Assembly (NCBI GenBank): GCA_002686835.1
Contig: NYYP01000027.1
Location: 1-40,258 of the forward strand
Length of the DNA stretch: 40,258 nucleotides
DNA from: Opitutia bacterium
GTDB lineage: Bacteria; Verrucomicrobiota; Verrucomicrobiia; Opitutales; Seribacteraceae
Direction: 5' to 3'
Both the position numbers and the translations under genes were made by a program. Positions 13,721 to 25,756 of the stretch are shown here, one piece after another (the stretch's first letter is position 1; every line of letters starts with the position of its first letter). Under the pieces are notes generated by a model that was not told the DNA's origin, searched no databases, and was given only the letters and a program-made list of their open reading frames with translations.

Positions 13721-13843
13721 TAAGGGGCAATGATTTTGACGATTTATCCCTTTACTTCCTCAAAAAATATGAAGATTGTTGTATCATAAAGAGTAGTTTT
13801 GTTAATATTATCTAAGATAGTTAACACAATCCAGTCCCTGTTT

Positions 13844-15844
13844 ATGAAAATCATTAAATTAAGCCCGTTATTCTACCCGATCTTTTTTCTCATCCCTGCT
13901 TTTCTTTATGCAAATGTAGGTGGTGCATCAGGGTCTAATATTTTCACCATTGCTGAAGGCAACTACTCTGATCCCACTTACAAGATCGTGAGTGCTGCTT
14001 CCCTTGGTGACCCTGTTTTTTCTGGCTCAGTATCTTCTTCTTCCAACTCGGATAAAAATATTACTTTCGCGACCGGCACCGACGAAAATAACAATACCAC
14101 TTATCCCTTCTTTGCGGCTGGTTCTTTTAAGCCAGATGTTCAACTTCCAGAAGTAAATCTTTCAGTAACGGTGGGCTCGGGGGCTGTGTCTTCGATTACA
14201 GCACCCACTTATCGAAATATGTTTCAAGCCTCTGGAGTCGGGTTCACCAATGCTCCTGAAGTCATTATCTCGCCATCGGATGGTGGTGGCGACACGGCAA
14301 CTGCGACTGCGAGCATTAATGCAGATGGTAAGGTAACAGGTTTTACCATCACAGCTGGAGGTACCGCCTATACAACAGCTCCTGATGTCACCATCGTGGG
14401 TGGTCCCCATTTTGCCCGTGTCGCGGATGAAACAAGTCAGTATTACGGAAGATGTTTTTTAATCACCAACAATAGCCGAACAAACCTGACTTTAGATATG
14501 TCCAACCTTGCTGACGGAGAAAGTACAAATGTTTCTACCTATTTCCCCGATGGAACATCTGTTGAGGTGATCCCTGCAGCTACACTTGGTACGATATTTG
14601 GAGCTTACTATGCACCCACAAATTGGGGGTCAGCAACGAGTTGGCGTGGAACTACCGGAAATACTGTGGACTGGGTGTATGTTTATGATCCTTCACTTGG
14701 TGGTTACACGAAGTATGTCCACATTGCAGGGAGCAACTTATACGGGTGGTATTCTCGAGACAAAAGATATGGTGTTAAATGTAATAATACCGTGGTTTAT
14801 CCAGATGAAGCGTTTATTATTGCCCGCAGAAGCTCGAACACAGTTACCTTAGAATCAGCAATTAATTTCGACGATACCCCTACGCAAATTTATCTACCCG
14901 CTGAAAATAATTCATTTATTGCGAACAATCCATTTGGTATGGATCTACTTTTAACTGAGATTATACCTTCAACGGAGATTGCAGACAGTGGAAATGCAAA
15001 ATTTCGTGCTGGAGATTCTTCTGATGATACAGATATGGATTCCATCACAGTTTTAGCGGGATCTACCTGGAAAAAGTATTGGTATAAATCCGGGGTCAAT
15101 TCTGGGATTACTACCCTAATGAAGGCGGGGGCAAAAAACCCTGGCGGTGCTATTGCCGCGAGTGACTTGTTCATCGGTTCGGGTTCAGTCACTGCTTTAG
15201 CAAGCTGTACAAATGCAGCTGGCACATCACTAGTTACCAATTATAATGATGGAAATTATACTAAGATTTCCATTTCAGGGACGACTGCTAATCTTACTGG
15301 TTTCACTGTTACTTTATCTAACATTCAGGGCTACATGCTCAGTGATGATGGAGCAAATGAGTTAAATGCGACCACACTCCAGACTGTCGATACCAATGGA
15401 ACTGGTTCTGTTGTTTACTCCAATATTTCTGGCAACTTTGAAGTTGTTGGAGGAGGTTCTGGTTACATTGTTGTAGAAAAGCAGCGTGATGTTAATTTCA
15501 AGAATGAAGGATCACCTGCTTGGAGTATCGGAAATGTAGGTGCAGGTTATGATACCTCCAGTTCCACAGCAACCTGGTATGCAATAGGAGGTGGAGGATC
15601 TGGAGGAAAGGGCACAGTTACTACCAATGGTTCGGGGCAGTATTCGAGCTTTGGTCTTACTGCGGGAGGATCTGGCTACACCTCAGCTCCGCAAATCATC
15701 ATTTCCGGAGGTGGTTGGCGATATACTGATAGTTCCTCACAAGATGATGTTGTTGTTGGTTCGTCTGACGGTCTTATAATTTACCGGGATGCCAATAGCG
15801 GAGTTAAGACTTTTATTGAGGCAAATAATCCAACTGCCGAGTAA
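13844..15844 (+). CDS. secreted TIGR02597-type protein with YTSAP-type glycine repeats
   Basis: This encodes 666 residues. ATG 13844 gives a clean signal peptide (MKIIKLSPLFYPIFFLIPAFLYA, cut before NVGG), so I prefer it to an open frame from 13799. The architecture resembles the paralogous TIGR02597 family of Verrucomicrobia: an early SLGDPVFSGSVSS segment, YYGRCFLITNNSRTNLTLD, VIPAATLGTIFG, VDWVYVYDP, and YPDEAFIIARRSSNTVTLE. Two inserts have the pattern GxGYTSAPxVxI with Gly/Thr-rich strands, one near residues 115-190 and one near the C-terminus (GGSGYTSAPQIIISGG). Other parts are not recognised. It has no PEP-CTERM or LPXTG end. Function is unknown; an outer-surface or extracellular protein is likely. 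Family recognition is from memory of the motif order. Confidence 0.65.
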   Translation: MKIIKLSPLFYPIFFLIPAFLYANVGGASGSNIFTIAEGNYSDPTYKIVSAASLGDPVFSGSVSSSSNSDKNITFATGTDENNNTTYPFFAAGSFKPDVQLPEVNLSVTVGSGAVSSITAPTYRNMFQASGVGFTNAPEVIISPSDGGGDTATATASINADGKVTGFTITAGGTAYTTAPDVTIVGGPHFARVADETSQYYGRCFLITNNSRTNLTLDMSNLADGESTNVSTYFPDGTSVEVIPAATLGTIFGAYYAPTNWGSATSWRGTTGNTVDWVYVYDPSLGGYTKYVHIAGSNLYGWYSRDKRYGVKCNNTVVYPDEAFIIARRSSNTVTLESAINFDDTPTQIYLPAENNSFIANNPFGMDLLLTEIIPSTEIADSGNAKFRAGDSSDDTDMDSITVLAGSTWKKYWYKSGVNSGITTLMKAGAKNPGGAIAASDLFIGSGSVTALASCTNAAGTSLVTNYNDGNYTKISISGTTANLTGFTVTLSNIQGYMLSDDGANELNATTLQTVDTNGTGSVVYSNISGNFEVVGGGSGYIVVEKQRDVNFKNEGSPAWSIGNVGAGYDTSSSTATWYAIGGGGSGGKGTVTTNGSGQYSSFGLTAGGSGYTSAPQIIISGGGWRYTDSSSQDDVVVGSSDGLIIYRDANSGVKTFIEANNPTAE

Positions 15845-16146: not shown

Positions 16147-19100
16147 TTATTTGCTCAGCCATTCTGAGTTGGCATAATCATAAATCACTAGGCGGGTAAA
16201 GTCTGAGCTTTCTAAATTAACGAAGTACCAACTACCAACAGATGAGGAATGCAGGTAGGGGTAGTGCTCTTTGGCTGTCCAAAACCAATCTTCCATCTTT
16301 TGTATCCATACCCAGATTGATTGGTCCCCTTTTTTCTTCATGTATATCCACCCCAATTTTTCGTGAAATAACCAGTCCTCATCTCCAACTTTCCAGAAAT
16401 ACCCAAACCATGGATTTCCCCACCAACCGTTATCCAGGGATGAAGAATCATCAAAAACGCCTACGCTTTGAAAATGTGCAACCACGCTGGTGTTTTCAAA
16501 GACACTGATTTGAGTGGTGGCATCATATGCGTTTGAGAATGTGGCCCCTTCCCAGTGCGAAAATTCAAATCCCTCCTTTGCATATGCCTGGATTGTTCGA
16601 ACACCTCTAAAAAAACCAGATCCACTAGTTGTTCCTTGGCTGGTGTTATCCGAATAAACGCTAAGTAAATATAATTTATTTGAGTCTTCATTAGACGGAG
16701 GATTATCAGCATCCACCACAAAAACCGCAGTTAATTCTTTGTTGCCATCCAAAGCCAGTGATGTGGTGCTGGAATAGGCATCTTTGACTATTCCTACAGC
16801 ATCCGAGCCATTAAAGTCCCAATGCGAAAATAAATACCCTTGTTTAGGCATGGCTAAAATAGCATGGTCGGGATTGTACTCAAATGAACCTCCTCCAAAA
16901 AGATAGGAAGCTGCTCCATCAGGTTCCGAAACCAAGCTTAAATTAACCAATCCTTCGGGAGCAAAATAAGCGGTCAGTTTGATATCATTGCCAAGAGAAA
17001 AAGACTGGCTTGCCCGATTGGGAGATCCTAGGCTTACGCCTGTAGCATCCCATTTGACAAAACGATACCCTTCCTCCGCGTAAGCAGAGACATTGATATC
17101 ATCTCCATATGAAAAGTCATCCCGCAATAAAGATTCGGACACAGGGAAATCATTGAGTTGTGCATTGCCTCCCACGCTTGGACTAATTTTAAGATCAACT
17201 TCGTATTTTCTTTCAGTTACCACTGCAGTTAGGTTTAAATCGGCGAGCATTTCATGGGTGTAAATTGTCTCAGTTGATAGGACTATATCTTGGTTTGCTT
17301 CGTTCCGCCAATGGTCCAGTTTGTACCCGTTCGCCAATGAAATGTGAAATTCAACGACTTCTTCATCTTCGGCAGTTTCTCTACCCAGTATTCTACCACC
17401 AAAAATTCCATCTTGAGGTAAGCCAAATTCATCTTCCACAACAACTTGGTAGGAAATATTATATTCTTTCGATTTAAATAGCGCAGTTAGTTTAGCGTTT
17501 CCAAGGATCGTAAACTGAGCTGGGTTACTTGTATTTAAATAATTACTTGCCAGTGTGGCATTGGCATCAATTTTCCAGCCATGAAAAAGTTTTCCCGCAC
17601 GAGGAATTGCTTCTATCTCAGCAATATTTCCATAATTATATGTGTTTTCAATCGAACTATATCCACCATAACCATCGGGTTCAAAAGATACAGTCAGGGT
17701 GTAATCCTTTGGTCTAAACTCTGCGTTGATAGCCGAATCTTTTTGGATGGTGAGTGATGTGCTTGGGGAAAATTCATTTTCTAAATGTTCACTGCCCACC
17801 CCAGTCCATTTATAAAATTCCCAGTGTTCATCTGGAGTAGCAAGTAGGCTAATTGTGTCTCCCCAGTAATAGGGGTATGTTGCATTCATTTCTGAGGAAC
17901 CGCCTTCGTTTGCAGATAAATCGATTTGGTAATGATTCTTGCGTAATACGGCCTGAAAATTCCGGGAATATGTTATGACTGTGCTAAAGGCTTTCTGGGT
18001 GGTCACGATCTCTCCGCTATCGAGATCGACCCAGTATAGAAAAGTATAACCTGTAAAGGGGTTCAGTTCCAGAGCGACTGAGTCCCCATGGTAGATTACA
18101 TCTGGTCTTGATACAGATGCTCCAATATCTCCCAAAATGGCTTGGTTGTTTTGGTCTAATGAAAGCAGTTGTATGTTTAGGTCTAGAACTATTTTGGAAA
18201 AGTTTGCCTGAGCTTTTGCATCGCCAAGGACTTTGAAATCCGCAGTTTGATTAAATCGGTCCTCGGGATTATCCAATGAAAGGTTTTCCAATAAACTCCA
18301 TTCGTCAAATTGTTTGCCAATCAGGGGGGAAGCCGAAAGGGTGACATATTCTCCGTAAGTGGAAGTTTCAGTTGGTGCATTAAGGAGTCCGTAATCAGCA
18401 GGAGTTGCATTTACATCTATCCGGTACTCAACTTGTTTGAAAATAGCACGGACTTCAGTATTTTCCACGACGCTTAGGATTGTCTGCATAGCATCTGGGT
18501 TTTGAATATGGGAACTTCCTTCCCAATGTGAAAAATACCAGTGGTCGGATGGCGTTGCAGTTATGGAGATTTCGTCTCCCCAGAAATAAATATCCTGCTC
18601 CGTGTAATCCGTTGTCCCTTGGCCGCTTGAACTAACGGAAATTGTGTGTCTGGTGCGCTCAAAATTTGCTCGCAGTCCAAAGTGTTGTGTCACCCTATTT
18701 GAAAAGACAGGGTTGTTGGGATTGGGGAGTATGAAAGAATCTTCGACCGTTGAAATTTTAATGCGGTTTCCTGAATAATTACTTCCCGTGCCATGATAGT
18801 AGAGCATGCTTGGTGCATCCATAGGTACTTCAAAAGTTAGCACTCCCTCAGATGTTAAGTGTCCAGTAATTCCTGATAGATAGTAAGCATCCTGGTCGCT
18901 AGAATCAGCAGAAGTGGATATAAAGAATTCATCTGACGAACTCAAATTACAATCAAAGTGGTAGGTAAACCCTCTGGACAGGGAAAGTTCCGGGCTTTCA
19001 TGATTATTTATAAACAGCCTTGTTTCAGATGAATGGATCGATGAATTATTTCTACTGATCTGAAAGGTGGTTTCTTTAATTAATTCCCAATTAACAAAGG

Positions 19101-22100
19101 TGAAGTTTTCATCAGCAGAAGCAGTGAGAATAAGGTTGGTTCCGTAGTTAATTTCATCGGTAAATCCAGAAATTGCTCCCTGACTTTGATTGTATTCAAG
19201 GGTTAAGTAATTGATTTTTGGCTGAAAGTGAGCCCAGATTTCGGAAGTCTCTACTAGTTCAGTATCAACAGAATACAAACTCCAATGTTGGGAAAATGCT
19301 TCACCTGTTTTGCTTTCCCAACCAATGAAGCTGTAACCGGTATTTGGTTGAGCCACTAATCTTTGAAACTGGGCTGAACTGAAGGAACTATTTTCGCCCG
19401 CAGAACCAGCATAGGGCGGGGTAGCGATTAATGAATACCCTATTTCGTTGCGCTCGGTAAAGTAAGCCCAAAATGAGTAATTTGCATCAAGAAAGGGAAT
19501 GTTAAATGTGGAAGAATAAGAAAATCCTGTCTCTCCTAAAGTGTTTTCCCAATACATGTAGTTTAACATGTGGCTTTCCGCATCGAGAGGAACTGCACTT
19601 ATAGTGACACTTGAGGTTGCATTATATTCGGTTTGGTTAAGTTGAGTAATTTCATTGTGTGTTCCACTAATCTGAAAACTTCCGTTTTCATCGGATAGGG
19701 CATTGATGGAGTAAACCTTGGGCACAAAGGAAGGTTGAATTTGAACATTAAATGATGGGATTCTCAGCTTGTTATTTGCTTCACCTGGGTCATGTACCAA
19801 GTGAGTATCTCCTCCGTTCCAACGATCAAAGAGATAGTGTTCCTGAGGCGTTGCATTGATATCCACAACAGTTTCAAATAGATACACCCCACCACCGCTC
19901 GCACTGCCTCCAATTTCAGTCTGATCGATGTTCAGTGAGTAGCTGTCCCTTTCAAATTTTGCACTTATATTTATGTCTTCCACTGGAATAAAGTCGATTT
20001 GGTCATCGAGTGGATTGAGATTCGGTTCTGAGTCCCGTAAACTGTCGGATTCCGGAAGACCAAACCATTGGGAGAATTTCCAGCCATTGATGGGAAGGGC
20101 ATTGGCTCCAAATCTGGTGGCTGAGTCGATACCAATAATTTCTTGCGTTGCATCAGCTATGAAAAGAATTTCATTTTTGCTCAAATCAACCGTCCCCGAG
20201 CCTTCCGTGCTCGTGCCAATCAAATAGGACTCCAATACAAAATTCGGGGTAAAACTAAGATTTCGCAGTGGAAGAGATGTATGATCAATAGTTGTCTGGG
20301 ATGCATTTGGGTCTAACAAATATTGAGTATCTCCAGACCAATGAGAAAAATCCCACCCCGGGTCTTCCATGGCAATTAATAAAGGACTGTCATAAACATT
20401 AAAGGAGGCAGGGGCAGTGGTTTCTCCTCCTTCTTGGGCCAATATTTCGATGTCATAATCAACAATAGAAAAGGAAGCATTGATTTCCATGCCACCTTCA
20501 ATTCGTAAGCGGTTGTTAGGACTGGATGTATTATAGAGCAGTAAGGACTCTTGTGATGTATCTAGTAACCATCCATTAAATTCATATCCTTTTACCGGAG
20601 TGGCATTTAAATCATAGGAAGAAAAATGAAGAAAGTTGCCGGATTCCTCAGATTCTAGCAACACTTCGCCACCATTTCCAGAATTTACCACAATTTGGGT
20701 ATCATCATATTCGGTAATTTTGAATTCTGCGGTGATATTTAAATCGCTGGACGGATAGAAATAAATAACAGAGGAGTACTGATCTACATGGGCAAGCGGA
20801 TTGTATAGCTCAGAAATGCCAGGTAGTCCCCTCCAGTTTGAAAAACTCCAGCCGTCTTGGGCAATTGTCTCAAATACAATTTGGGTTTCGGAATCCACAG
20901 TGACCGACTGGAATGCAACCCCGTTGAATGATTCTCCACTCGATAAAATTATATCTACACTGCCATTACCCTCAGTATTCAGAGAAATTTGATAATTTTC
21001 AGGCACAAAATTGGCAATCAGGCTTAAATCCTCAGGAACTGAGTTATCTTCTAATACAATAAATGTTTCGGAAGCTAAATGATCTAATAAATATTCCGTA
21101 TCTCCTGACCAATGCGTGAAGCGGTTTCCCTGAAAAGGGATAGCTTTAATCGATGGAGTATCTTGCATGGTGAAGTTTTCCGGTCCCAAAGTAGTTCCTT
21201 CACCAGAAGATGATAGATTTAGCTCATACTCGCTTAGGGTAAATGATGCGCGAAGAGAGAGTGGGCCTTCGATTAAGAATTTATTGTTTTTCTCCTGGGA
21301 ACCGAATTCGAGTTGCTCAGTATCGCCCACCCATTGATCAAATTGATAACCTAAGCTAGCCGTGGCATTAAGCTCATAAGATGTAAAATGGGTAAAGCCT
21401 CCAGAGTCATCAGTTTGAAAAAGGATGTTTCCTCCCGCATCTGCAGTAATATTTATATCCGATTCATCATAATCATCTAATCGCAGGATTGCAGATACCG
21501 AAGCACTATCATGGGGATAAATTTTGCTAATATTTGCTTCAGTTTGTGCAAGATTTGGATTGGCTAGAATTCCAAGGGGGTCTTGCCAATAATCAAACAC
21601 AAAGCCTTCTTGCACCTCGACCTCCACAGGAACTATGCTCAGAGCAGGGAATTGCCCAGAAGAAGAAAGGGAGCTGTACCCCTGGGTCGATTCGATATTC
21701 AACTGGTAGCTAATTTCAAAGAAACTGGCTGTTATGTTAACATCTGCAGTTGGGATAAAGCTCGTGTGGGCAAAATTTTGGTTTCCCAGCATTGATATGC
21801 CATCACTTGTAGTTATCCAACTGTTAAAACCAAAGTGTTTCTCAGGGATCGATCGCAAGAAATATTCGACCCCATGCTCGATGACTTGTGGTGTCGATCC
21901 ATTGGTGTCTAGGAGTTCGTAAGATCCCCCTAACTCAGCCCCAATTAAAACATCGTATGTGTTGCGGGTGAAAACAGCGACCAAATCCAGATTTCCAGGA
22001 ATGGAAATGGTCTCGATAGCATTCGAACTGAAATGTGTGCCATTATTTTCCCAGTGGCTGAAAGAATGACCGTAATCTGGAGAAGCAAAAATATCGACTG

Positions 22101-23256
22101 AGTCTCCAAAACTAAATGAACCCCCACCAGTAACTGAACCATTTCCATTAACTTCCAAATTTAAAAAATAAGGAACCAGGGCAAATTCTGCATAAATAGT
22201 TTGTGCACCGTCAACTGTCAGGGTGGTATTTTCAGTCCATGGGTCGGATAAACCACTGCCAATCCAGCCATTAAAATAAGAATGAGGACCAGGGGTTGCA
22301 GTTATGTTGATCTCTTGACCCCATGTATAGGATCCGTTGATATCGGAAATTGTACCGGAACCAGTTGAGTTTGCATAATTTGAAACCCCAATCGTGTAGG
22401 TTGGTGACAGGGATGTTTTAAAGGGATTGGCGGGGTCTTCAAAAATAGCCCCAGTTTTCCATGAAGAAGCAATATTTGATATTTTGAAATAATGATTAGA
22501 TGGGATGCTCGACCCATTGGGGAAAGAGGGCCAGAGCCATTCCGCTCCGGTGACGGTGTTGTAGTTGGCACCACCTAATGTTGGCTTATCATAAAAGCGA
22601 ATACAAACAGGAGTACCAGGGGGCGGAGTCGTGGCTGTTATTGTAAAACCTGGACTATCTTCGAACTCTTTGGGTTCTGTGGGGAAAACCACAATATAAT
22701 CACGATTTTTGAGAAAATTAGTGGTGAAGATGAACATACCATCATTAAATCCATATCCAGAACTGGAATCACCAACATGAGTTTGGCGAGTGAGTGCAAT
22801 CCATTGACCAGAAAATGGATCGCTGGTTGTTGCGCTGGTAAAATAACCAAGTTCCACTAAGTCTCCATCCCCATTCCCTTGCACTCCAGCACTTAGTGGG
22901 TTTCCGTTTGCATCTTTTAAAACCTCTGCAGAGCCGTCAATTGTTGTTGTGCCCCAAACAATGGTAATTTGCGGAGTGGCTGAAAGTGCGGATACCAGGG
23001 ATAGTCCTGTGATGAAAAATAATAACTTAGGCCAAAGTGTTACCCCAAAAACAAAATTCAGGCACTGTTTAATTCGAAATAATGACTTGTTTTTCTTGTA
23101 TATTTTTGTGTGGCATCGACCGCGACGGGTAGGCTGCGAAATTGAAGTGAAAAGGGGAGTTGCTTTGGTGGGTGGCCAGGTGGGTTTGTAACTAATTGAT
23201 GCAAAGAGACTTAGTGCAAATCTTTTCAAAGAGCACAAATAGGTAATATAATGCAT
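16147..23256 (-). CDS. giant exported protein with ~23 InlB B-type repeats and Trp-rich C-terminus
   Basis: This encodes 2,369 residues. In order: a ~75-residue leader; a hydrophobic signal (LLFFITGLSLVSALSA); an N-terminal domain of about 130 residues with GDGDLVELGYF, FSGQWIALT, PVCIRFYD and YNTVTGAEWLW; then about 23 divergent InlB B-repeats of 70-90 residues. The repeats typically show YxLxV..G.G.....G.F..G..V.ITA.P...Y.F..W.G........T.....+L.A.F. A 93-residue module with 12 Trp closes the protein (GWIYM, WVWI, WFWT, YPYLH, GSWYFV). One repeat carries an inserted cupredoxin-like domain. Two blocks of three repeats are tandemly duplicated. Such repeats occur in adhesins and surface fibres, so adhesion or prey/particle binding is plausible but unproven. 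The ATG at 23254-23256 is chosen over a TTG three codons earlier; the start is doubtful. Confidence 0.8.
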   Translation of the reverse strand: MHYITYLCSLKRFALSLFASISYKPTWPPTKATPLFTSISQPTRRGRCHTKIYKKNKSLFRIKQCLNFVFGVTLWPKLLFFITGLSLVSALSATPQITIVWGTTTIDGSAEVLKDANGNPLSAGVQGNGDGDLVELGYFTSATTSDPFSGQWIALTRQTHVGDSSSGYGFNDGMFIFTTNFLKNRDYIVVFPTEPKEFEDSPGFTITATTPPPGTPVCIRFYDKPTLGGANYNTVTGAEWLWPSFPNGSSIPSNHYFKISNIASSWKTGAIFEDPANPFKTSLSPTYTIGVSNYANSTGSGTISDINGSYTWGQEINITATPGPHSYFNGWIGSGLSDPWTENTTLTVDGAQTIYAEFALVPYFLNLEVNGNGSVTGGGSFSFGDSVDIFASPDYGHSFSHWENNGTHFSSNAIETISIPGNLDLVAVFTRNTYDVLIGAELGGSYELLDTNGSTPQVIEHGVEYFLRSIPEKHFGFNSWITTSDGISMLGNQNFAHTSFIPTADVNITASFFEISYQLNIESTQGYSSLSSSGQFPALSIVPVEVEVQEGFVFDYWQDPLGILANPNLAQTEANISKIYPHDSASVSAILRLDDYDESDINITADAGGNILFQTDDSGGFTHFTSYELNATASLGYQFDQWVGDTEQLEFGSQEKNNKFLIEGPLSLRASFTLSEYELNLSSSGEGTTLGPENFTMQDTPSIKAIPFQGNRFTHWSGDTEYLLDHLASETFIVLEDNSVPEDLSLIANFVPENYQISLNTEGNGSVDIILSSGESFNGVAFQSVTVDSETQIVFETIAQDGWSFSNWRGLPGISELYNPLAHVDQYSSVIYFYPSSDLNITAEFKITEYDDTQIVVNSGNGGEVLLESEESGNFLHFSSYDLNATPVKGYEFNGWLLDTSQESLLLYNTSSPNNRLRIEGGMEINASFSIVDYDIEILAQEGGETTAPASFNVYDSPLLIAMEDPGWDFSHWSGDTQYLLDPNASQTTIDHTSLPLRNLSFTPNFVLESYLIGTSTEGSGTVDLSKNEILFIADATQEIIGIDSATRFGANALPINGWKFSQWFGLPESDSLRDSEPNLNPLDDQIDFIPVEDINISAKFERDSYSLNIDQTEIGGSASGGGVYLFETVVDINATPQEHYLFDRWNGGDTHLVHDPGEANNKLRIPSFNVQIQPSFVPKVYSINALSDENGSFQISGTHNEITQLNQTEYNATSSVTISAVPLDAESHMLNYMYWENTLGETGFSYSSTFNIPFLDANYSFWAYFTERNEIGYSLIATPPYAGSAGENSSFSSAQFQRLVAQPNTGYSFIGWESKTGEAFSQHWSLYSVDTELVETSEIWAHFQPKINYLTLEYNQSQGAISGFTDEINYGTNLILTASADENFTFVNWELIKETTFQISRNNSSIHSSETRLFINNHESPELSLSRGFTYHFDCNLSSSDEFFISTSADSSDQDAYYLSGITGHLTSEGVLTFEVPMDAPSMLYYHGTGSNYSGNRIKISTVEDSFILPNPNNPVFSNRVTQHFGLRANFERTRHTISVSSSGQGTTDYTEQDIYFWGDEISITATPSDHWYFSHWEGSSHIQNPDAMQTILSVVENTEVRAIFKQVEYRIDVNATPADYGLLNAPTETSTYGEYVTLSASPLIGKQFDEWSLLENLSLDNPEDRFNQTADFKVLGDAKAQANFSKIVLDLNIQLLSLDQNNQAILGDIGASVSRPDVIYHGDSVALELNPFTGYTFLYWVDLDSGEIVTTQKAFSTVITYSRNFQAVLRKNHYQIDLSANEGGSSEMNATYPYYWGDTISLLATPDEHWEFYKWTGVGSEHLENEFSPSTSLTIQKDSAINAEFRPKDYTLTVSFEPDGYGGYSSIENTYNYGNIAEIEAIPRAGKLFHGWKIDANATLASNYLNTSNPAQFTILGNAKLTALFKSKEYNISYQVVVEDEFGLPQDGIFGGRILGRETAEDEEVVEFHISLANGYKLDHWRNEANQDIVLSTETIYTHEMLADLNLTAVVTERKYEVDLKISPSVGGNAQLNDFPVSESLLRDDFSYGDDINVSAYAEEGYRFVKWDATGVSLGSPNRASQSFSLGNDIKLTAYFAPEGLVNLSLVSEPDGAASYLFGGGSFEYNPDHAILAMPKQGYLFSHWDFNGSDAVGIVKDAYSSTTSLALDGNKELTAVFVVDADNPPSNEDSNKLYLLSVYSDNTSQGTTSGSGFFRGVRTIQAYAKEGFEFSHWEGATFSNAYDATTQISVFENTSVVAHFQSVGVFDDSSSLDNGWWGNPWFGYFWKVGDEDWLFHEKLGWIYMKKKGDQSIWVWIQKMEDWFWTAKEHYPYLHSSSVGSWYFVNLESSDFTRLVIYDYANSEWLSK
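16150..16428 (-). other. Trp-rich C-terminal module, copy 2
   Basis: These are the last 93 residues of the giant protein. There are two related sub-units of about 40 residues, each with W-x-(Y/F) pairs and a LGWIYM or DWFWT turn, ending YDYANSEWLS. It matches the order of landmarks in the left-edge protein (342-542). The position and repetition suggest a cell-surface attachment or sorting unit, by inference. Confidence 0.6.
17205..18655 (-). repeat. tandem duplication of a three-repeat module (pair B)
   Basis: Within the giant gene, two consecutive blocks of about 725 bases (roughly 17930-18655 and 17205-17929) each encode three InlB-type repeats in the same order. The first member has ITATPSDHWYFSHWEG versus LLATPDEHWEFYKWTG. 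The second has ASPLIGKQFDEW versus AIPRAGKLFHGW. The third has a divergent GDIGASV versus GIFGGRI type. Neighbours within a block are less alike than equivalent members across blocks. Boundaries are approximate. Confidence 0.6.
18750..18996 (-). other. cupredoxin-like domain inserted in an InlB repeat
   Basis: About 82 residues from PELSLSRGFTYHFDC to GNRIKIST interrupt one InlB-type repeat, which resumes afterwards (TQHFGLRANF). The pattern L-x-RG-x-TY-x-F ... FxIST ... YxxGxTG ... GxLTFEVPxDAPSxLYYHG resembles the small beta-sandwich found in marine surface proteins, usually PxLxLxRGxTYxF...DAPSxLYYxC. The usual HPF and CxxHxxM metal ligands are not conserved (EFF, and HGTGSNYSG). Confidence 0.5.
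19945..21470 (-). repeat. tandem duplication of a three-repeat module (pair A)
   Basis: Two consecutive blocks of about 755-770 bases (approx. 20715-21470 and 19945-20714) each encode three InlB-type repeats in matching order. Member 1 reads GGNILFQTDDSGGF...FTSYELNAT versus GGEVLLESEESGNF...FSSYDLNAT. Member 2 reads FTHWSGDTEYLLD versus FSHWSGDTQYLLD. Member 3 reads WSFSNWRGLPG versus WKFSQWFGLPE. The blocks are about 250 residues each. Boundaries are approximate. Confidence 0.7.
22576..22977 (-). other. shared N-terminal domain, copy in the giant protein
   Basis: This encodes about 134 residues just after the signal peptide. The landmarks GDGDLVELGYF, DPFSGQWIALTRQTHVG, GMFIFTTNF, CIRFYDKPTLGGANYNTV and EWLWP occur in the same order and spacing type in the divergently encoded PEP-CTERM protein (23513-24110). 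A named family is not recognised. Confidence 0.6.
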
Positions 23257-23405
23257 TAAAACCAAGCTACAATTCGATAGGGCCTTTATGTAATAATCTA
23301 AATCTTATGGCCATTGAATTGCAAGAAAATGTCTCCTAAATTTGAGTGTTAAAAATGTGATAATTTCAAAATCATTTCGTTATTCAAAAATAATTTGACT
23401 TTGAA

Positions 23406-23420
23406 TGAACTATAAGTTCA
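23406..23420. promoter_or_regulatory. palindrome in the divergent promoter region
   Basis: TGAACT-ATA-AGTTCA is a perfect 6-bp inverted repeat with a 3-base centre, 21 bases before the chosen ATG of the PEP-CTERM gene and directly after TTGACT (23395-23400). The AT-rich spacer 23257-23440 must hold promoters for both divergent surface-protein genes. The palindrome could be an operator. No clear -10 is seen. Confidence 0.3.
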
Positions 23421-23440
23421 GATTAAATGACCCTATAATT

Positions 23441-25756
23441 ATGTTACGTAAAGTAAGATTAGCAAGTTTGCCCGTTTGCCTGATGTTGGTTGCCAGTGCA
23501 CTTTCCGGTGTCAATACTTGGGAGTTCGATTGGAGTACTCACTTAGGTTTAAGTGCACCAAACACAGTTGGTGATACTGATCCTTCTAGTATCCAGCATT
23601 TGTACGAGTTGAATGCTGCTGGTTCAACCGAATCACTACTTACCACATCAAGTGCAGGGAATTCCTATGATGGTGATTTGATCGAGCTTGGCTTTTTTGA
23701 CACGGATGGAACCATTGATGGTGGAAGCTACACTCCAAATGAGGATCATACTGATTTGTTCAAGGGGATTTGGACACCATTAACCTCCAAGACAAAAATC
23801 GGGAGAGACTGGAGTGGGACTACTGTTGATGCTGGTGAATTTTATTTTTACACAAAATTCCAGCTGGATGCAGGCAACGCTGGTAATGCCGTCAACAATT
23901 ACTCGATTTCCAATCTAAGTAGCAATCAACTTGATAACGATAATTTAGGAGATTCGAGTAATCCCAACACACTGGAATACCGCTTAAATGGATTAACCGA
24001 TGATACTTTGATCGGTATAAGATTTTACGATGCGACCTCTGCGACCAGTGGAAGCACACGATACAACACCATCATGAACCCAAACTGGGATTGGGTTGGC
24101 GGAGAAATGATGACACTTCACAAAACAGATGGAACAGGGCTGAATACTGACCTAGTCTTTGAATTTGATAATACCAGTGCAGATTCCGGTTCCAAAATTG
24201 GGACATCTGATGCTTCCATTAGTGGGCTGACCAACGGAGATTTTGTGGCTACCGTAACTTATTTCGATGGAAGTGAAACGATCAATGTGGGGGATAGCGG
24301 TGGTGGTATTGGTTCCTCGGTATTCAGCGGATTAAATGGCTCTGGGAAATTGTATGGTGGGCAGGATGGAAATGTTGTGACTATCCATTCCCAGTCAGGT
24401 AACACAGGTGCCAGTGCCTATGAATTTGACGGGGATTTTTACCGTGCGGCAACTGGTACTGATTCAACCGACCTTACCATTGTAAAATCCGGGACGGGAG
24501 ATCAAATCCTCAGCGGTAACTTGAATCTTGCCGATTCTACTGATAATGGCTCTGCGAGCGGCGGACTTAAGATTGCTGCAGGTAAGTTAACACTAAAGCC
24601 CGGTAGTAATTCTCAGACTGTGGAATACTTAGAAGGTTCCGGGACTCTTGTGCTAGACAATACTGGTGCTTCGAACAATATTGTAACCCTTGGGTTTGCC
24701 AATAATACTGCATCTTCATTTTCAGGAAATGTCGAACTTGCTGGATCTGGTAGCGAGGCTAAAATTGGAGTTTCTTCGGGTAGTACTGACGCTGATTATA
24801 ACAATGTTCAAACAATATCCGGAGTTGTTTCTGGCTCAGAAAAATTAGTTAAAGAAGGTGTTGGAGCTTTAAAATTGAGTGGTACCAATACTTTCGATAG
24901 TGATGTCGAAATAAATGGCGGTCGCATAATTGCTGCTAGTGCTCAGGCACTGGGTGATACTGGAAACACTATCGTCATCAACACTGGCAAACTTGAAGTT
25001 GCAAGTGGCACAACCCTTAACTCTGGTTATACTATTCAGGGAGACTCAGATGGAAGTGGTAGAAGTTTTGTTGGAGGTGATGGTACAATTGGAGGAAGTG
25101 TTACCATTGGTTCGGCCAACAACGAAATTGATGTTGTAGCACCTGGTGAGGGATTAAGCACATCCATAAATCACGACAAAAAACAAGCACCAAGAGGTCA
25201 TGGAGGCGATTCTACCCTTGCCGTTGGTAATTTTACTGTGGGGACCTTGACATTTAATGATGGTGGTGTTTACGATTGGGAGATTGATAATTTCGGTGGA
25301 AGTGAAGGAACCAATTGGGACCTTTTGAATTTTACTACTCTTAACCTTACCGACAAGACCGACACCTTTACCATCAATGTATTGGGTCTGGACCCAACCA
25401 CCGATCTTTCTGGTTCTCCTACTGGAGATAATCTTTGGACTCAAGGTGGTACTCAGTGGAAGTTTTTACAAGGTAGCACCATTAACTGGGGTGGTGGTTC
25501 GCAATGGAGTGATGCTGAAATTAAGTCCTATTTTGATGTTCGCTACGATGACATTGCATACCAGGAAAATATGTGGGGTGCGGATTGGTATGTATCTTAC
25601 AACAGTGGTGCATTTTACCTTCAATTCTCTGCTGTTCCTGAACCCTCTACATACATGATGGTTACTGGATTATTGATGGTCCCTGGAATATCCTATGTCC
25701 GTAGATTGAGGAATAAAAAAGCAGAAGCCAATGTGGATGAAAGTCCACTTCCTTGA
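23441..25756 (+). CDS. exported PEP-CTERM protein with autotransporter-associated strand repeats
   Basis: This encodes 771 residues. ATG 23441 gives a signal peptide (RKVRLASLPVCLMLVASALSG), so it is preferred over the open frame from 23405. It is followed by an N-terminal domain shared with the divergent giant protein (YDGDLIELGFF, FKGIWTPLT, FYFYTKF, LIGIRFYD, STRYNTIM). The middle has beta-strand repeats of the autotransporter-associated type (LSGNLNLAD, GALKLSGTNTFDSDVEINGGRIIAASAQALGDTGNTI, quoted in spirit as strand-turn units), rich in Gly/Ser/Thr/Asn. The end is a PEP-CTERM sorting signal: VPEPSTYMMVTGLLMVPG, then the basic YVRRLRNKK, then an 11-residue tail. PEP-CTERM proteins are handled by an exosortase, which is not in this window. 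Probably a surface or exopolysaccharide-associated protein. Confidence 0.85.
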   Translation: MLRKVRLASLPVCLMLVASALSGVNTWEFDWSTHLGLSAPNTVGDTDPSSIQHLYELNAAGSTESLLTTSSAGNSYDGDLIELGFFDTDGTIDGGSYTPNEDHTDLFKGIWTPLTSKTKIGRDWSGTTVDAGEFYFYTKFQLDAGNAGNAVNNYSISNLSSNQLDNDNLGDSSNPNTLEYRLNGLTDDTLIGIRFYDATSATSGSTRYNTIMNPNWDWVGGEMMTLHKTDGTGLNTDLVFEFDNTSADSGSKIGTSDASISGLTNGDFVATVTYFDGSETINVGDSGGGIGSSVFSGLNGSGKLYGGQDGNVVTIHSQSGNTGASAYEFDGDFYRAATGTDSTDLTIVKSGTGDQILSGNLNLADSTDNGSASGGLKIAAGKLTLKPGSNSQTVEYLEGSGTLVLDNTGASNNIVTLGFANNTASSFSGNVELAGSGSEAKIGVSSGSTDADYNNVQTISGVVSGSEKLVKEGVGALKLSGTNTFDSDVEINGGRIIAASAQALGDTGNTIVINTGKLEVASGTTLNSGYTIQGDSDGSGRSFVGGDGTIGGSVTIGSANNEIDVVAPGEGLSTSINHDKKQAPRGHGGDSTLAVGNFTVGTLTFNDGGVYDWEIDNFGGSEGTNWDLLNFTTLNLTDKTDTFTINVLGLDPTTDLSGSPTGDNLWTQGGTQWKFLQGSTINWGGGSQWSDAEIKSYFDVRYDDIAYQENMWGADWYVSYNSGAFYLQFSAVPEPSTYMMVTGLLMVPGISYVRRLRNKKAEANVDESPLP
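23513..24110 (+). other. shared N-terminal domain, copy in the PEP-CTERM protein
   Basis: The order YDGDLIELGFF ... LFKGIWTPLTSKTKIG ... GEFYFYTKF ... GIRFYDATSA ... RYNTIMNPNWDWVG parallels the giant protein's N-terminal domain (22576-22977). This copy is longer, with an insert of about 45 residues before GIRFYD. Confidence 0.6.

Follow-up and report, generated by a model that had tools for sequence, protein, structure and literature searches.

Two divergently transcribed genes of the window (the whole stretch of 40,258 nucleotides that was analysed), G and P, encode exported proteins with a homologous N-terminal domain, here called the head, and in distant taxa of the Verrucomicrobiota head genes are found directly downstream of a gene of the TIGR02597 family, to which the third gene of the locus, T, is related. 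T, P and G may form a three-protein surface assembly in which the head would be the partner domain of TIGR02597 proteins and both heads would dock to T, a reading that we hold to be evenly balanced between right and wrong.

Organization of the locus

The positions and strands of the reading frames of G and P were as an earlier sequence-only reading had given them. G (16147-23265, minus strand, TTG start as called) encodes a giant exported protein of 2372 amino acids, arranged as signal peptide, head (22516-22992, minus strand, head profile match 7.3e-57), InlB B-repeat body and Trp-rich C-terminal module (W module). The body (16468-22275, approximate limits, minus strand; PF18998 and PF09479 matches) consisted of 17 divergent InlB B-repeats in the Pfam scan (PF18998 5.8e-129, 17 stretches), and the W module (16153-16428, minus strand, profile 4.2e-31) was modelled as an all-beta folded domain. 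As annotated, G and P are separated by a divergent intergenic stretch from 23266 to 23404, which may be longer because the exact start codon of G is uncertain. In the start region of G (23030-23265, minus strand), no in-frame ATG, GTG or TTG was found between the codon at 23229 and the predicted signal peptide; among the orthologues of which this region was examined (L033, L041, L049, L054 and L056), several were without a standard start there and others carried an ATG immediately before the signal peptide. G may start at a non-canonical codon or possess a leader.

P (23405-25756, plus strand, ATG start) encodes a protein of 783 amino acids, arranged as signal peptide, head (23495-24103, plus strand, head profile match 2.1e-47), beta-helix stalk of autotransporter-passenger type (approximately 24272-25625, plus strand; weak TIGR02601/PATR matches and Foldseek) and PEP-CTERM sorting/anchoring signal (25634-25711, plus strand; TIGR02595). 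The TIGR02595 match scored 18.8 bits in the genome search (curated cut-off 16) and 14.0 bits, just below the cut-off, in the single-protein scan. The three elements of a PEP-CTERM end, namely the PEP motif, the transmembrane helix and the basic cluster, were found in P only, and G had none of them. Modelled with AlphaFold2 (pLDDT 81.5, pTM 0.82), P begins with a signal helix and continues with a head rich in beta structure and a long middle part made largely of beta-strands; a last helix (residues 747-776) lies at the PEP-CTERM signal. When the entire model was submitted to Foldseek, the best PDB matches were a beta-helix domain (7jvi, E 7.1e-6) and the autotransporter Ssp (8e7f, E 9.8e-4), matches that belong to the whole model and are not head-specific.

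T (13799-15844, plus strand), which is convergent with G, encodes a TIGR02597-like secreted protein of 681 amino acids. Its TIGR02597 match (14441-15109, 7.1e-8, 31.1 bits), the sole one of the window genome, did not reach the curated cut-off of 50. In profile-profile comparison, the T family of f1 (the family of the window) and f18 matched canonical TIGR02597 proteins with a probability of 99.7 and an E value of 1.8e-25 over about 290 columns, by which T is a TIGR02597 homologue, though below the membership cut-off.

Homology of the two heads

The sequence-only reading had noticed by eye a common series of landmarks in G and P, and GDL(V/I)ELG(Y/F)F, G.W, F.T, IRFYD, YNT and W.W were all found in that order in both heads. 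The N-terminal pieces of G and P were matched by BLASTP with an E value of 5e-10 (44.3 bits), and the local score was 122, against a maximum of 69 among 2000 shuffles. The profile-profile comparison that the same reading had proposed was significant, with a probability of 99.9, an E value of 2e-32 and a score of 220.5 for profiles built from 29 heads of G and 26 of P, against 18.8 for the column-shuffled control. The homology of the G and P heads was confirmed by these sequence comparisons. The head extends from the W of ITIVWGT or FDWSTH, right after the signal peptide, to a W.W(P) motif past YNT. No model of it was found in Pfam or NCBIfam, and PDB sequence searches with the head, the W module and T returned nothing convincing.

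Pairing and retention of G and P

A search of the window genome with a two-sequence head profile returned exactly two heads, those of G and P. Heads were found in 30 of the 57 relatives, nearly always as two and adjoining, and with a broader profile run on 273 genomes of the order they were confined to f1 and one further family, f18. In all 25 genomes that have G and P on a single contig the two were divergent, and G lay between T and P in every f1 genome with a contig reaching T (22/22). The gene order of f1 was constant (lptF/G-like, T, G, P, SNF2, glgA and phoH). As the whole f1 neighbourhood is collinear, adjacency within f1 is partly inherited order, and it is weak evidence for a partnership of T with the head; retention of the pair and the situation outside f1 are the stronger evidence.

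Three genomes of the same genus as the window (G002, G005 and G006) gave no head match. A true loss of the pair was ruled out in them, the end of P being still beside SNF2 and the contig breaking inside P. Two further genomes without a head match (G009 and G010) have contigs that stop at the SNF2 gene, and three incomplete genomes likewise gave none. Among the genomes where it could be checked, with the same-genus contig breaks included, there was no true absence of the pair. The proposal of a two-component surface system in the sequence-only reading fits this divergent, single-copy retention of one G with one P.

The same facts bear on the reading that G and P go back to an old tandem duplication followed by slow rearrangement, have separate functions and stay together as frozen gene order in f1. 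The collinear flanks across the whole of f1 agree with it; it is made improbable by the retention just described, neither G nor P having been seen lost alone even where absence was apparent, and by the linkage of T with the head, which persists with different flanks in distant taxa. In one genome (L035 in G007:C19, and L146) both G and P were split into several frames, where sequencing error and decay are indistinguishable.

Fixed tails of the two paralogues

Wherever the contig included an unbroken end, that end was the Trp-rich module in G and PEP-CTERM in P. G and P were placed apart in a tree of 45 head sequences (branch between the sides 78/83; P group 95/91; G as a whole weak, 48/25), the f18 copies stood beside their own kind and no tail swap was observed; the G-like gene of f18 already carries InlB repeats and a Trp module. 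The separation in the tree, the placement of the f18 copies and the f18 G-like tail together argue for one old duplication after which tails were not exchanged between G and P. Within the pair, the tails are those of fixed paralogues, and the interchange implied by alternative tails on a common head was not borne out.

Across the whole phylum, the idea of a modular family in which one head is combined with different tails held good. Bodies fused to heads were PEP-CTERM alone, a beta-helix with PEP-CTERM, InlB repeats with the Trp module, and He_PIG or I-set Ig domains; among head-bearing giants of 2678-3185 amino acids, the one scanned had MBG and CFAP65-like Ig domains.

The Trp-rich module and the PEP-CTERM end

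The sequence-only reading had further taken the head for a common targeting unit, with PEP-CTERM and the Trp-rich end as alternative C-terminal sorting signals. PEP-CTERM itself is a real sorting signal (PMC1569441), and the Trp module, present in eight ORFs of the window genome of which G is one, mostly closes its protein, usually within 10 residues of the end. Neither half of the proposal fared well. G and P each already have a signal peptide, and seven of the eight Trp-module proteins, as well as the other PEP-CTERM protein of the genome, are headless. The Trp module of G was predicted with confidence as a folded domain (AlphaFold2, pLDDT 91.6, pTM 0.82), and more than 200 residues come after the module in L116, L119 and L126. 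The head as targeting unit with dual sorting signals is accordingly very improbable. The idea that the W module serves as a C-terminal sorting signal was rejected because the module is internal in these three proteins; on its model, the term folded surface module suits it best.

No PDB fold match of the W module was better than E 0.44, and no PDB sequence match fell below E 0.1. Its carriers in the window genome include a trypsin-type protease-like protein and Ig/cadherin-like proteins (both by eye) and another InlB-repeat-like protein, and copy numbers of 8-13 were found in genomes of other families of the order. The C-terminal part of a further Trp-module protein, truncated at the window start, was found at 3-545 of the window (E 2.3e-6). 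In L119 (1357-2526) and L126 the module stands before a domain like the formylglycine-generating (sulfatase-modifying) enzyme, by eye only, and in L144 (14750-15340) two matches follow in succession at the end of one giant.

For the PEP-CTERM end of P, two TIGR02602-like exosortase ORFs were found in the genome, each at about 57 bits and under the cut-off of 105.55, and they carry the Cys, Arg and His motifs (ACSGI, N..RA and His-Asp, respectively). PEP-CTERM proteins over the cut-off were only two in the window genome. Processing of P by the PEP-CTERM route is plausible, given these exosortase-like ORFs, whose motifs are those expected, and the two proteins that pass the PEP-CTERM cut-off. 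The only other protein over the cut-off (L251, in G000:C34) has 455 amino acids, is headless and bears the same pre-PEP motif as P, SAVPEPSTY.

Linkage of T to the head across the phylum

T, which was missing from the account of the sequence-only reading, gave the strongest clue to the role of the head. The head was rare, being found in two genomes other than its own among the 388 of the phylum sample. In genomes G412 and G460 it lies within a PEP-CTERM protein of 219-238 amino acids, with a TIGR02597 gene directly upstream and gaps between the two genes of -4 (a 4-base overlap) and +38 bases. When the order of G412 was searched with nothing but the head profile, 13 further head genomes came to light, of family f102, and each of the 15 regions read in f102 has a TIGR02597 gene immediately before the head gene and in the same orientation. 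This result is a blind test of the link between T and the head, since T was absent from the query. In the class of G460 (198 genomes), the search for more head genes returned none besides that of G460. The T-head operons of the distant genomes include TIGR02597 members over the cut-off. In f18, P genes come directly after T (L057 and L166), and the G-like genes are located elsewhere. Gly-rich repeats of the 'SGYTSAPTVTISGGG' type are common to the T of f1 (window 13799-15844) and the f18 P proteins (L057:7437-9617 and L166:4797-6971), and it is probably because of these repeats that the f18 P ORFs match the T profile.

From the side of TIGR02597, 22 of the 29 loci taken from the phylum had a PEP-CTERM gene as their immediate downstream neighbour in the same orientation; among 130 other ORFs of these stretches, which served as a control, this held for 1. 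In HMMER searches, most of these PEP-CTERM partners gave no match to the head. When the two main partner types were compared with the head profiles, the best scores were 32-38 and the weakest 18.7 and 25.5, with probabilities of up to 72, and reversed or shuffled controls gave at most 19.4. On these profile scores, which are only suggestive, the head and the ordinary TIGR02597 partners are likely to be distant homologues; the claim that the head family comprises all TIGR02597 partners was dropped on that account.

The head might instead be a ligand-binding domain in its own right, the ligand being, for instance, a polysaccharide from algae or from the matrix of the cell itself; G and P would then be two adhesins for one ligand, and T would be co-expressed only, making no contact with the head. 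This would account for the position of the head right after the signal peptide in both proteins, for heads that stay similar while stalks differ, and for head genes with no T nearby, namely the G-like tandem copies of f18 (L051, L164 and L165) and an Akkermansiaceae gene (L157) whose upstream neighbour encodes a nidogen-domain protein. We consider it rather unlikely, as the linkage to T is near-perfect in f102, G412, G460, the P genes of f18 and f1, and the gaps, being of the translational-coupling kind, fit an obligate partner better than a common ligand.

Proposed assembly and comparison with known systems

In the assembly proposed for T, P and G, the older unit would be a two-gene operon of T followed by a short head-PEP-CTERM protein, with the head and T jointly active in the extracellular space. 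A duplication of the head gene would have followed in the Opitutales, and one copy would have become the giant fibre, which in f1 now lies between T and P in inverted orientation. On the gene order, the simplest reading is that G ended up within the older T-P unit. Both heads would dock to T, or to each other with T, and one surface site would present a short exosortase-anchored stalk (P) and a long adhesive or matrix fibre (G). Somewhat more tentatively, TIGR02597 and the head family may constitute an unrecognised surface-display module of the Verrucomicrobiota, in which T as receptor or scaffold would present any body fused to a head; here one T would serve two paralogous heads and so give a paired surface organ of short stalk and long fibre.

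PEP-CTERM proteins are numerous and their function is mostly unknown. A constant partner, TIGR02597, with a head that carries exchangeable bodies would turn unsorted exported proteins into a testable two-part module, which would also be the first functional handle on TIGR02597. The head and the W module are two domains outside Pfam and NCBIfam, and for the W module a confidently predicted structure goes together with the lack of any fold match.

The PEP-CTERM/exosortase (EpsH) surface-protein system (TIGR02595/TIGR02602) was described by Haft et al. in 2006 (PMC1569441), in a text without mention of TIGR02597. P resembles its substrates in the PEP motif, hydrophobic helix and basic cluster at its end and in the exosortase-like genes of the genome, but differs in being tied to a TIGR02597-like gene and to a fixed paralogue, G, that has no PEP-CTERM, in a genome with so few proteins over the cut-off. 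The TIGR02597 family itself is an uncharacterised NCBIfam entry of type 'paralog', and no paper naming it was found in the literature searched. T shares with it the homologous columns given above, whereas the T of the window is longer, scores below the cut-off and is separated from P by the inverted G.

The middle of P, modelled as a beta-helix, is like the passengers of autotransporters (PATR/TIGR02601; Ssp and Ag43), but unlike these type V secretion proteins P has no C-terminal beta-barrel in Pfam and ends in a single PEP-CTERM helix. The 17-repeat body of G is shared with InlB B-repeat or Listeria-Bacteroides repeat proteins (PF18998 and PF09479); in contrast to internalin InlB, G showed neither leucine-rich repeats nor GW modules in the Pfam scan and has no known anchor, and its head and W module lie outside Pfam. 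Literature searches on InlB repeats in Verrucomicrobiota, on adhesins of Opitutales and on a Trp-rich companion of PEP-CTERM found nothing. The names of the isolates suggest a marine habitat for f1.
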